Origin: Rhodococcus sp. W8901
GTDB taxonomy: Bacteria; Actinomycetota; Actinomycetes; Mycobacteriales; Mycobacteriaceae
Assembly (NCBI RefSeq): GCF_013348805.1
Contig: NZ_CP054690.1
Span: forward strand, 4,464,001-4,528,000
DNA: 64,000 nucleotides
Reading direction: 5' to 3'
Positions 26,211 through 29,116 of the stretch are shown piece after piece. A program made the translations under genes and the position numbers. The notes under the pieces were generated by a model. The model ran no database searches. It was not told the origin of the DNA and saw only the letters and a program-made list of their open reading frames with translations. Within the stretch, counting starts at the first letter, position 1. Every line of letters starts with the position of its first letter.

Positions 26211-26759
26211 TCACGCGCTCAGGTTCAACGTCAGCTTTGCCAGCGCGACCGCGGCGTCACACGGATCGGGGTGTCCGGCCGACTGGAACTGCACCCACCA
26301 GCCCACGACGCCCCCGGCCGGGCCACCGGCCGAGATCCCACAACTGCCCGGATCCTGCGGGGGTCGCGACAGCACCGCACGCCGCCCCTCGACGGTGATG
26401 TCCTGCACCGCATACCCCAGCTGCTCGGACGTCCGGCGCTCGATGTCGAGCCCGCCGGTCTCGAACCAGTTGAACGTCACCCGGACCGGACCGCTCGGGC
26501 CGCCGACGGTCCAGCGGCAGATCGCGCCGAAGAAGCCCCGCTCGATCGAGTCACCGCCGACCGCCTCGGCGATCTTCTCGGGCGGCACGACGTCGCACTC
26601 GGTGAGCAGCGCCGCGAACCGCGACGACGCACCGGGCTCGGTCGCACCGACCGGGGTCGGCGTGCCGGCGACGGTCGAGGCACAGCCCGCGAGCAGGAGC
26701 ACACCGGCCAGGACAGCGGTGGGGACGGCGGCGAGTGTCGAGGTCCGGGTCAACGTCAC
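26211..26759 (-). CDS. DUF3558-type lipoprotein
   Basis: A 182-residue secreted lipoprotein. A hydrophobic signal ends in the lipobox LLLAGC near residue 25. After it come a Thr/Pro-rich spacer and a DUF3558 domain with a regular Cys pattern (ECDVVP, AICRW, GSCGIS, DPCDAA), probably forming disulfides on the cell surface. These are characteristic of Nocardiaceae and mycobacteria; their function is unknown. I chose the GTG at 26759, which overlaps the preceding gene's TGA by four bases. It is the second gene of a lipoprotein pair. Confidence 0.8.
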   Translation of the reverse strand: MTLTRTSTLAAVPTAVLAGVLLLAGCASTVAGTPTPVGATEPGASSRFAALLTECDVVPPEKIAEAVGGDSIERGFFGAICRWTVGGPSGPVRVTFNWFETGGLDIERRTSEQLGYAVQDITVEGRRAVLSRPPQDPGSCGISAGGPAGGVVGWWVQFQSAGHPDPCDAAVALAKLTLNLSA

Positions 26760-27283
26760 TTCCCCCTCGACGCGGTGAGCTCCGCGAGATGTCGTGCCGC
26801 GGTGCACGGATCGGCCGACGGCACCGAGTCGACGTATGCGACCGACCAGTGCACGAAGTCGTCGTCGAACTCGACCCCCAGCTCGCACAGCCGACTCGAC
26901 ACGGACGCCTCGAAACCGGGACGCCCCTCGATCTCGATGTCGGTGGCCGGACGCCCGATCAGCTCACTGCCGGCCCGCTCGCGACCGATCGGGCTTCCTC
27001 GATACCAGGAGAACGACACGTGCGGTCCAGGCTGCCCGGCCGCCGGCGAGACCTGCCACTCGCAGCCCACCGAGTTGCGGACCACCGACCCGAAACTCGG
27101 GACGCCGAAGGCCGCGGCCACCTCCTCGTCGGTGACCGATCCGCACTCCCCGAAGAAGGGACCGGACGTGCGTGCGGTCGACGCCGACGAACCGCTGGAT
27201 TCGTCAGAACCGCCCGCCGCCGCGCCGCATCCGGTGACCAGCACCGCGACACCCGCCAGCACCCCCACCAGCTTGTTCGACAT
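26756..27283 (-). CDS. DUF3558-type lipoprotein
   Basis: A 175-residue lipoprotein and paralogue of the next gene. The signal peptide ends in LVTGC at about residue 19, followed by a Ser/Gly-rich linker. The DUF3558-like core has paired Cys residues (FGECGSV, VGCEW, SRLCELG, ADPCTAA). The GTGA overlap with the following gene and close similarity in layout suggest a tandem duplication. They may form a complex at the outer face of the envelope. Role unknown. Confidence 0.8.
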   Translation of the reverse strand: MSNKLVGVLAGVAVLVTGCGAAAGGSDESSGSSASTARTSGPFFGECGSVTDEEVAAAFGVPSFGSVVRNSVGCEWQVSPAAGQPGPHVSFSWYRGSPIGRERAGSELIGRPATDIEIEGRPGFEASVSSRLCELGVEFDDDFVHWSVAYVDSVPSADPCTAARHLAELTASRGK

Positions 27284-27301: not shown

Positions 27302-27940
27302 CTACGACACCGGCGAGGCGGGTGCCGTCGCGTCCACGCGCTGCGCGTCGAGTGGCCGCAGCGCGGCGTCGAGCTGGACCGCCCAGCACCGCACGATCTC
27401 GGCGCGACGGCGCGAGTCGTCGGTGAGGACGTCCGCGAGCCCGAGACCGCGGGCGAGGTCGAGGGTGGCCTGGACGAGCCGCCGGACCGTGGGGTTCGAA
27501 TCGTCGACGCCGAGGCTCTCGACGGCCGTGCGGTGGGCGATGCGACCGAACCGCTCCTCGAGCGGCAGCACCCGTGCCCGTAGTTCGGGGTCGGCGGCCG
27601 CCGCCGTCCACACCTGCAGCGCCGCCTTGAACAGCGAACCCGAGTAGTAGTCGACGAGCCGGGCCACGACCGCCTCCGTCCGGCCCGCCCCTTCGGGCAG
27701 CTCGGTGACCTCACGCCGCGCCTGTTCCATCCGGCTGTCGAACATGAACTCGAGCGCCGCGGTGATGAGATCCTCGCGGGTCGGGAAGTGGTGCTGCGCG
27801 GCACCGCGGGAGACGCCGGCGCGCTGCGCAACGACCGCGACCGTTGTCGCGGACCACCCGAAATCGGTCAGACAGTCGACCGTGGCTTCAAGGAGCCTGT
27901 GCCGGGTCAGCCTGCTCCGGTCCTGCTGGGGTGCGCGCAT
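27302..27940 (-). CDS. TetR-family transcriptional regulator
   Basis: A 212-residue TetR repressor. The DNA-binding region is FGWSATTVAVVAQRAGVSRG with AAQHHFPTREDLI (about residues 24-58), and the rest is helical. I chose the ATG at 27940 because GGAGAGG lies about ten bases upstream; the ATG at 27982 has no such signal. It is divergent from the 42-residue peptide gene and may control it or the lipoprotein pair. M. tuberculosis Rv0681, a TetR upstream of rpsL, is the likely positional counterpart. Confidence 0.85.
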   Translation of the reverse strand: MRAPQQDRSRLTRHRLLEATVDCLTDFGWSATTVAVVAQRAGVSRGAAQHHFPTREDLITAALEFMFDSRMEQARREVTELPEGAGRTEAVVARLVDYYSGSLFKAALQVWTAAAADPELRARVLPLEERFGRIAHRTAVESLGVDDSNPTVRRLVQATLDLARGLGLADVLTDDSRRRAEIVRCWAVQLDAALRPLDAQRVDATAPASPVS

Positions 27941-28029
27941 GTCGTCGCTGTCCTCTCCTACCCGCCCTACCGATATGTGCATCCGAAGTTAACACCGTGA
28001 AAGTTAGGGTTACCTACGTCACATTCTCA

Positions 28030-28058
28030 TTGCGAACCAGACTCGGGCACGTTATCAA
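28030..28058 (+). promoter_or_regulatory. Promoter candidate for the small acidic peptide gene
   Basis: TTGCGA (28030-28035), a 17-base spacer, then TATCAA (28053-28058), in a markedly A/T-richer stretch than its surroundings. A GGAAGG/CCTTCC hairpin (28069-28084) sits in the expected leader, before the AGGAG ribosome binding site. Position fits the gene at 28116. Confidence 0.45.
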
Positions 28059-28115
28059 TCTTCCCTGAGGAAGGATTGCCTTCCCTACTAACACCACATC
28101 CACAGGAGCATCACC

Positions 28116-28244
28116 ATGGGTTCTGCCGAGATCCTCGACTTCTTCGACTTCGTGACCGACTTCGCCGGCGCTGCCAGCGACCTCTTCGGCGCCCTCAGCT
28201 TCTTCGCGGGCTCGCTCGAGACCGTCTCGGGCATCTTCGGCTGA
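28116..28244 (+). CDS. Small acidic Phe-rich peptide, 42 aa (PorA/PorH-like properties)
   Basis: The peptide begins MGSAEILDFFDFVTDFAGAA and ends SGIFG. It has six acidic and no basic residues and eight Phe. Asp at positions 8, 11, 15 and 22 would line one face of an amphipathic helix. No signal peptide is visible. A good ribosome binding site (AGGAG, seven bases), a promoter-like pair, a leader hairpin and a 12-bp terminator frame it, so it is very likely expressed. Corynebacterium PorA (45 aa) and PorH are leaderless acidic peptides that form mycolic-acid outer-membrane channels, and this peptide shares their size and composition. I found no residue-level proof of homology. A signalling or surface-active peptide is an alternative. 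Confidence 0.7.
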   Translation: MGSAEILDFFDFVTDFAGAASDLFGALSFFAGSLETVSGIFG

Positions 28245-28257
28245 TCCGACGCCCCGA

Positions 28258-28300
28258 CGAGCGCGGGGTCCCGTCCATCACGGAAGGAACCCCGCGCTCG
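28258..28300. terminator. Terminator shared by the small peptide gene and the minus-strand operon
   Basis: CGAGCGCGGGGT (28258-28269) pairs perfectly with ACCCCGCGCTCG (28289-28300), followed by TTT. It is 13 bases after the peptide stop and 3 bases beyond the enoyl-CoA hydratase stop on the other strand, so it can serve both. Confidence 0.85.
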
Positions 28301-28302
28301 TT

Positions 28303-29106
28303 TCAGCCGTCGACGGCCCACCTCGGCGGCCGCTTCTGCATGAACGCGGTGATCCCCTCGACCGCATCCGCCGACCCGAACAGGGCCGCCGACTGTGCGG
28401 CGAGCACCTCCCCGTAGCGGTCGAAGTCCTCGAGCATCCGCATCGTCGTGAGCTTCTTGGATTCGGCCAGCCCCTGCGGCGAGCATTTCCGCAGTGTGGC
28501 GACCAGTTCCCGAACGGTGTCGTCCGAGTCCTGCACGGCCTCGCTGATCAGTCCGATCGCCTCCGCCTCGTGCGGGCCGAACTTCTCGCCTGTGAGGAAG
28601 TAGCGTCCCGCCGCGCGCGCCGTGAGCCGCGGAATCACGGTGAGCGAGATGATCGACGCCGCCAGCCCGAGACGCGCCTCTGTCAGGGCGAACGTGCTGT
28701 CCGGCCCGGCGACGACGATGTCGCACGCCCCCACCAGTCCCATCCCGCCGGCACGGACGTGTCCGTCCACTCGGGCGATCACGGGCTTGGGCAGTTCGAC
28801 GATCGCCCTCAACAGCTTGACCATCTGCCGGGTCCGCTCGGCGGCGAGTTCCGCCGGGCTCGCATCGACCGCCCCGGAGGCCCCGGACGCCCCGGACGCT
28901 TCCGACAGATCCGCACCCGCACAGAACGTGCCCCCGGTGTGGGTGAGCACGACCGTGCGGGCGGCATCGTCGGCCGCGGCGTCGGCCAATCCCTGCAGCA
29001 GTTCGGCGACCAGCCTGCTCGAGATCGCGTTGCGGTTGTGCGGTGAGTCGAGGGTGAGCGTGGCGCAGCCGTCCGCGACGTCGTATCGAACGAAACGATC
29101 CGTCAT
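28303..29106 (-). CDS. Enoyl-CoA hydratase/isomerase family protein
   Basis: A 267-residue crotonase-fold protein. The oxyanion-hole regions HNRNAISSRLVAELL and GGTFCAGADLSEASG are visible, as is the second half-site GHVRAGGMGLVGACDI. In the Atu pathway the hydratase AtuE acts after the carboxylase, and this gene could fill that role as the last gene of the operon. I chose the ATG at 29106, with GAGG upstream. It lies 10 bases after the acyl-CoA dehydrogenase stop. The loop ASGASGASGAVDAS is an unusual Gly/Ala/Ser-rich insertion. Confidence 0.85.
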   Translation of the reverse strand: MTDRFVRYDVADGCATLTLDSPHNRNAISSRLVAELLQGLADAAADDAARTVVLTHTGGTFCAGADLSEASGASGASGAVDASPAELAAERTRQMVKLLRAIVELPKPVIARVDGHVRAGGMGLVGACDIVVAGPDSTFALTEARLGLAASIISLTVIPRLTARAAGRYFLTGEKFGPHEAEAIGLISEAVQDSDDTVRELVATLRKCSPQGLAESKKLTTMRMLEDFDRYGEVLAAQSAALFGSADAVEGITAFMQKRPPRWAVDG

Positions 29107-29116
29107 ACGCACCGCC

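Follow-up and report, generated by a model that had tools for sequence, protein, structure and literature searches.

In Corynebacterium, porH and porA are described as lying between groEL2 and the polyphosphate kinase gene, and the corynebacterial porins as proteins without presequences (PMC5944148, PMC3792995). The C. glutamicum channel has been modelled as a pore made of five copies each of PorA and PorH, with the mycoloylated serines forming a belt, in a mycomembrane whose width is given as 50-80 A (PMC12632848). MytC is reported to acylate PorA at Ser15, a residue that the model places in a short inter-helix linker (PMC11927696), and the mapped O-mycoloylation sites are described as Ser/Gly-rich (PMC11066868). 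PorACj of C. jeikeium is presented as a 40-aa protein that forms a homo-oligomeric channel from one gene (PMC3792995). The outer-membrane channels of Rhodococcus are described as MspA-like (PMC9233653, PMC5944148), and PMC9233653 also cites earlier studies of R. equi and R. erythropolis channels that are small or anion-selective. As far as the accessible text of the open-access literature goes, no PorA/PorH-type protein is described outside Corynebacterium, and an earlier biochemical sighting is conceivable. PMC5310785 describes orthologues of MytC in Nocardia, Gordonia and Rhodococcus; it presents the generality of protein mycoloylation as still open and, in its accessible part, names no substrate outside Corynebacterium.

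Here, we analysed a stretch of 64,000 nt from Rhodococcus sp. W8901 (NZ_CP054690.1; hereafter the window), whose genus group is Prescottella (formerly Rhodococcus). The locus under study and its immediate neighbours are the following:

28116..28244, + strand: open reading frame of a 42-aa leaderless acidic helical protein, a candidate mycomembrane protein (ORF list, orthologues, AlphaFold2)
28209..28214, + strand: codons of Gly32-Ser33 within the FFxGS motif, holding the candidate acylation serine (invariant in 17/17 rows of A1, the profile of the window family)
27302..27982, - strand: divergent TetR-family regulator gene, a candidate regulator (PF00440, E 7e-11; adjoins the gene in 14/14 Prescottella genomes)
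28303..29112, - strand: convergent enoyl-CoA hydratase gene, a conserved neighbour only (NF005879 over cut-off; kept in 14/14 Prescottella genomes)

The translation of 28116-28244 is MGSAEILDFFDFVTDFAGAASDLFGALSFFAGSLETVSGIFG (42 aa, 4329 Da, pI 4.05). Both the ORF and its composition bear out the preliminary description, which had read here a 42-codon gene with six acidic residues, no basic ones and eight Phe; the Asp residues that it had placed on one helical face (positions 8, 11, 15 and 22) indeed fall in a 60 degree sector of the helical wheel. The helical moment is modestly higher than that of the permuted sequence (p = 0.016). The protein is predicted to be helical, since AlphaFold2 models the single chain as one helix spanning residues 3-41 (mean pLDDT 86, pTM 0.47), which at 1.5 A per residue comes to about 58 A by arithmetic and falls within the mycomembrane width quoted above. 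No signal peptide was seen by eye: the N-terminus, MGSAE, has no basic residue and the helix starts at residue 3.

We found that the 42-aa peptide matches 14/14 Prescottella genomes at E up to 1, and that each of them carries a copy flanked, as here, by the TetR and enoyl-CoA hydratase genes (loci L001-L008, L010, L012-L014, L016 and L020). The change among these orthologues follows the coding frame. Over 38 codons of eight orthologues, the variable columns at codon positions 1, 2 and 3 number 16, 9 and 20, and the coding frame has the lowest median pN/pS (0.45, against 0.76 and 2.5). Conservation of the amino-acid sequence in related species, which the preliminary description had proposed as a check, was thus found when the check was run, and 28116-28244 is shown to be a real, conserved gene. 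Purifying selection on it is visible but not tight, because pairwise dN/dS ranges from 0.25 to 1.44 in 28 pairs over only 38 codons, with three pairs above 1. The absence of basic residues is no family constant: 10 of the 14 orthologues have none and one has four.

The gene is framed by a set of putative expression signals, which are listed below in the order in which they lie:

28006..28023, + strand: operator-like element AGGGTTACCTACGTCACA, upstream of the promoter (genome search, orthologues)
28030..28058, + strand: promoter hexamers TTGCGA-17-TATCAA (TTGCNN, 17-18 nt, TANNAA in 14/14 orthologues, a pattern composed after viewing the orthologue alignment)
28069..28084, + strand: leader dyad GGAAGG-ATTG-CCTTCC (a dyad of at least 5 bp in the leader of 12/14 orthologues, differing between some of these 12)
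28104..28108, + strand: ribosome-binding site AGGAG (sequence; a ribosome-binding site in 14/14 orthologues)
28257..28301, + strand: terminator-like stem of 13 bp with a 19-nt loop, then TT (a stem of at least 9 bp in 14/14 orthologues)

TTGCGA (28030-28035) and TATCAA (28053-28058) together agree with the consensus at 8/12 positions. The latter ends 57 nt ahead of the ATG, the hexamers of the orthologues lie 53-65 nt ahead of the start codon, and AGGAG is spaced 7 nt from the ATG. The segment 28244-28310 folds at -38 kcal/mol. By its own criteria, a strict consensus scan gave zero promoter or terminator sites: it needs 9/12 matches and a final T, and so misses a site of 8/12, and its loop limit is 8, so that a loop of 19 nt is passed over. 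What is shown for these promoter, ribosome-binding, leader-dyad and terminator-like signals is their conservation. The gene seems to form a transcription unit by itself, under its own promoter. Each of the elements in the preliminary description has held: the hexamers with a 17-base gap and the ribosome-binding site, the leader hairpin, and the terminator, described there as 12 bp and found here as a 13-bp stem. Further upstream, AGGGTWACCTNNRTCACA has a single match in the whole genome when at most one mismatch is allowed, at 28006-28023, and AGGGTWACCT is present exactly in 10/14 orthologues upstream of the 42-aa gene. A similar dyad, AAGGNNNNCCTT, recurs in the leader at 28069-28084. Taken together, the two suggest either a pair of operator sites or an RNA hairpin. 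The divergent TetR gene, for which a start at the ATG at 27940 is a guess, shares the upstream region 27941-28115 with the 42-aa gene.

The named neighbours of the gene are those of the TetR regulator, a DUF3558 protein, the enoyl-CoA hydratase and an acyl-CoA dehydrogenase. Two adjoining reading frames occupy 26211-27283, between rpsL and the TetR gene, and the second of them matches DUF3558 (PF12079). L051-L053 retain both frames and L055 the first; the locus of L054 is a different one and lacks them.

Beyond Prescottella, a search with the 17-row profile A1 across the taxonomic family found matches at E up to 0.01 in 68/401 genomes and 9/31 genera, and the other 333 of the 401 genomes gave none. 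An order-wide draw yielded 5/397 matching genomes, our own included, all five from the same taxonomic family. Short ORFs were confirmed at 23/25 Prescottella loci, 16/16 further loci, 19/20 fetched regions and 12/15 further non-Corynebacterium regions, some genomes recurring between these sets and one of the 12 (L156) stemming from the PorACj search; they were unconfirmed at L023 and L024 among the Prescottella loci and at L059, L153, L158 and L159 among the fetched regions. Related short ORFs occur in seven genera (g1, g4, g6, g21, g23, g25 and g27). The matches in g9 (one) and g29 (two) are weak, with E 0.006-0.009 and in long frames, and were provisionally taken as chance. Two profiles each found one family copy in this genome, and no second member or tandem partner. 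Plasmids do not appear to carry the gene: a plasmid-borne origin was rejected because neither the window peptide nor one short-class peptide had a tblastn match at E up to 0.01 among 72,556 plasmid records. The search of solved structures returned two 'Tet4 Variant' chains only (E 0.006-0.007 over 15 residues), which we also took as chance.

Family members fall into a window type of 37-45 aa (class W), a short class of 28-45 aa with the pattern MDLSFLSEFF...FFSGS (class S), a g23 type ending in FFTSLS, a g27 type, and tandem pairs in g4 that comprise an H-like (DH) and an A-like (DA) protein. The g23 variants, at L038, L042, L043 and L047, end in FFTSLS instead of FFxGS. All 17 rows of A1 agree at M1, S3, F29, G32 and S33, and an xGS motif is found in 20/20 W, 15/16 S, 7/10 DH and 0/12 DA peptides, the last having GG or GT in its place. 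Acidity is usual in the family but not universal, as one W member has a net charge of 0.

To compare these classes with the corynebacterial porins we used profile-profile alignment (hhalign) with 60 column shuffles and 15-30 reversed-rotated profiles as controls; single-pair hhalign E-values are uncalibrated, so weight was placed on the controls. The W, S, DH and DA profiles held 20, 16, 10 and 12 peptides, with rows chosen by eye and near-duplicates and the g23 FFTSLS, g27, g25, L163 and L165 types left out, and CA, CH and CJ were the PorA, PorH and PorACj sets. Thirteen loci from the PorACj search were read: six were kept as CJ, L083 and L098 went to the PorH set, and L080 (PorH, also L132), L084 (a g4 protein, in DA), L085, L086 and L099 were left out, as were the PorH loci L135 and L139, which have stops in frame. 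Within the family, the pairs W-S (97.7% probability, the measure used for all pairs here), W-DH (91.9%), W-DA (91.0%), S-DH (91.2%), S-DA (83.5%) and DH-DA (55.1%) all exceeded every control; the DH proteins had been found by the window profile, whereas position first led to the DA proteins, which makes the W-DA match the less biased test. Towards the porins, every control was likewise exceeded by W-PorACj (55.8%), W-PorH (42.1%), W-PorA (39.7%), S-PorH (77.0%), S-PorACj (67.0%), DA-PorACj (66.2%) and DH-PorACj (28.1%). Other pairs failed: S-PorA (2.0%), DH-PorA (1.2%) and DA-PorA (0.9%), with DH-PorH (5.1%) and DA-PorH (13.0%) no better than the reversed controls. By the same method, the accepted relatives PorH and PorACj reached 88.0%, a figure that may be inflated by CJ and part of CH coming from one model, PorA and PorACj 26.0%, and PorA and PorH 5.4%, which is no better than the reversed controls.

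The peptides were also compared with curated models. The window peptide has no Pfam or NCBIfam match at E up to 10 and does not reach the cut-offs of NF033925, NF033938 and NF038022. When 27 distinct family peptides, several of them alike and hence not independent, were scanned against 18,950 NCBIfam models, 14 had a porin model (PorACj or porH_2) as their first-ranked match, none had another family in that place, and 13 matched nothing. The best of these porin matches has an E of 9e-5 and the others 0.007 to 0.8, and the porin cut-off was passed by 0/27. Ten reversed peptides gave 0 porin matches and one unrelated match at E 0.011. The best hit is that of a g4 second-of-pair protein to the PorACj model NF038022 (22.4 bits, cut-off 28). 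In g13, the reverse strand of L085 (oriented 1456-1725) holds a 90-aa frame, MDITQMIALLETIVGFSDFFSGSADIMSGS..., which repeats SGS motifs and has a sub-cut-off match (E 8e-4) to the PorACj model; it is possibly a longer relative. Altogether, remote homology between class W and the porins is moderately supported by these alignments, the W scores against PorACj, PorH and PorA being higher than those of some accepted pairs.

Gene order in g4 bears on the same question. A tandem array is present in 8/9 fetched g4 regions, in all eight on the same strand and directly after a Cpn60 gene; g4 genomes with matches outside the nine regions are G172, G233, G240 and G247. The Cpn60 was identified by PF00118 for one of them and by 97-99% identity to that one for the others, and it shares 82-83% identity with the Cpn60 that adjoins PorA, PorH or PorACj at 5/5 fetched Corynebacterium loci. 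Judged from sequence, the g4 proteins therefore hold the position of porH and porA in Corynebacterium. At L057, L066, L073, L151, L152 and L154-L156 the arrays encode very small acidic proteins, as two to three tandem pairs that follow groEL2. The arrays are followed by an esterase of PF00756, the Pfam family to which mycoloyltransferases belong, and this esterase could be a dedicated acylating enzyme. The window gene lies away from groEL2, between the TetR and enoyl-CoA hydratase genes, and no porin-like ORF was found within 1.5 kb after groEL2 in 11/11 non-Corynebacterium, non-g4 genomes, this one included.

The likeness to known systems is partial. With PorACj (NF038022) the 42-aa protein has in common its length, the lack of a presequence, a single gene with an AGGAG ribosome-binding site and a terminator hairpin, and helicity, and it differs in having no NF038022 match at E up to 10, in not lying beside groEL2, and in being Phe-rich and acidic with an FFxGS motif that is absent from the six PorACj sequences used. 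PorH (NF033938), PorA (NF033925) and the C. glutamicum PorAH channel are likewise made of small, leaderless helical proteins, and class S has an MDLSF-like N-terminus in common with PorH; the PorA, PorH and PorACj sequences used here are 34-84 aa long, which brackets the 42 aa of the window peptide. However, PorA and PorH are encoded as a tandem pair, whereas this genome has one family member only, and the mycoloyl serines are given as S15 of PorA and S56 of PorH (PMC12632848), against the candidate S33 here. The PorA/PorH-like reading in the preliminary description, made with no claim of homology, has gained some homology support from the profiles, from 14 matches in 27 peptides against none in 10 reversed ones and from the g4 relatives after GroEL, and the leaderless, helical character is supported; the window peptide itself, with no porin model match and as a lone copy away from groEL2, goes against it. 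We consider that the protein probably is a remote relative of PorA and PorH and works like them, and we do not file it as either, because it falls short of the curated cut-offs and lacks their locus and pair features.

The channels already known from Rhodococcus are of a different kind. MspA porins carry a Sec-type signal peptide. Their domain (PF09203) is much longer, with 179 model positions, and the window peptide has no Pfam match. This genome has three PF09203 matches, one of them partial, and with MspA genes present the need for a further porin is not obvious. At E up to 1e-5, MspA matches were absent from the two g4 and two Corynebacterium genomes tested. Among the genomes with any match, G074 has fifteen; of the other 12, 11 have one to three and G237 has six.

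The reading we favour, and hold to be rather probable, is that of a leaderless helical mycomembrane protein of a PorA/PorH/PorACj superfamily, lipidated at Ser33 and assembled into an oligomeric pore, where we infer export, lipidation and pore formation. The protein would be exported by the same route as PorA and PorH, and Ser33 would then be O-mycoloylated by a MytC-type mycoloyltransferase. By analogy with the mapped sites, the invariant Gly32-Ser33 would be the best acylation candidate and fits their Ser/Gly-rich context; AlphaFold2 places it inside the helix, not in a linker. Ser3 would come second, because the short class keeps the GS without the N-terminal extension. Given the single family copy in the genome, assembly in the mycomembrane would be as a homo-oligomer, like PorACj, or together with some partner still to be recognised. 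Lined by the Asp face, the pore would be water-filled, with an acidic lumen, and probably cation-selective, and it would work beside the MspA-type porins as an additional route.

A protein of the same superfamily could also be anchored in the mycomembrane by its lipid and serve there as a structural or surface protein and not as a pore, as may be the case of ProtX, a mycoloylated C. glutamicum protein reported to have unknown function (PMC5310785). The MspA-type genes of the host fit such a role, as does the confinement of good conservation to the helical core and the GS motif. Nevertheless, the characterised proteins to which it is closest by profile, PorACj and PorH, are channel components, and a stripe of Asp on one face suits a pore lining, so that we regard a non-pore role as unlikely, if far from negligible. 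It is very unlikely that the product is a secreted membrane-active or signalling peptide, similar to a surfactant, a modulin or a bacteriocin, that acts outside the cell. Being leaderless, Phe-rich and weakly amphipathic, with a divergent regulator gene adjoining, it has some of the looks of one. Most membrane-lytic peptides, however, carry basic residues and the window peptide has none; its named neighbours are not immunity or export genes, it keeps one chromosomal locus in 14/14 genomes, and the families that it resembles by profile are those of envelope proteins. Were the product a small regulator, cytosolic or in the inner membrane, of the acyl-CoA enzymes encoded nearby, this would explain why the gene adjoins enoyl-CoA hydratase in Prescottella and at three g21 loci, but relatives lie at loci without these neighbours (L009, L011, L015 and the short class, for instance) and the hydratase gene is convergent and does not form one operon with it, which makes such a regulator very unlikely too. 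Finally, a chance ORF or a non-coding RNA, for which the tiny size and the lack of recognition by Pfam or NCBIfam would speak, has a negligible probability and is rejected by conservation, as the protein is kept across genera with a start codon behind a ribosome-binding site and a similar end, and both the codon-position counts and the pN/pS ratios given above follow the coding frame.

If the leaderless pore is the right reading, the family may represent a PorA/PorH-type system of mycoloylated helical pores on the Rhodococcus side of the mycolata, beside the MspA porins. We advance this wider proposal tentatively, with slightly more doubt than belief. The ancestral copies would have lain after groEL2, where they are kept in Corynebacterium and g4, the family would later have moved and diversified, and the MytC-like enzymes that have been reported in Rhodococcus and Gordonia would act on these peptides as substrates. 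In this sense, the 42-aa protein is a candidate substrate for those reported in Rhodococcus, and outside Corynebacterium its family provides concrete candidates both for the mycoloylation of proteins and for a second route of permeation. Moreover, since a helical peptide based on PorACj is already described in use as a synthetic nanopore (PMC9474448, PMC12491518), natural relatives of 28-57 aa are of practical interest. For these bacteria themselves, the candidate second permeability route would be relevant to the entry of nutrients and drugs.
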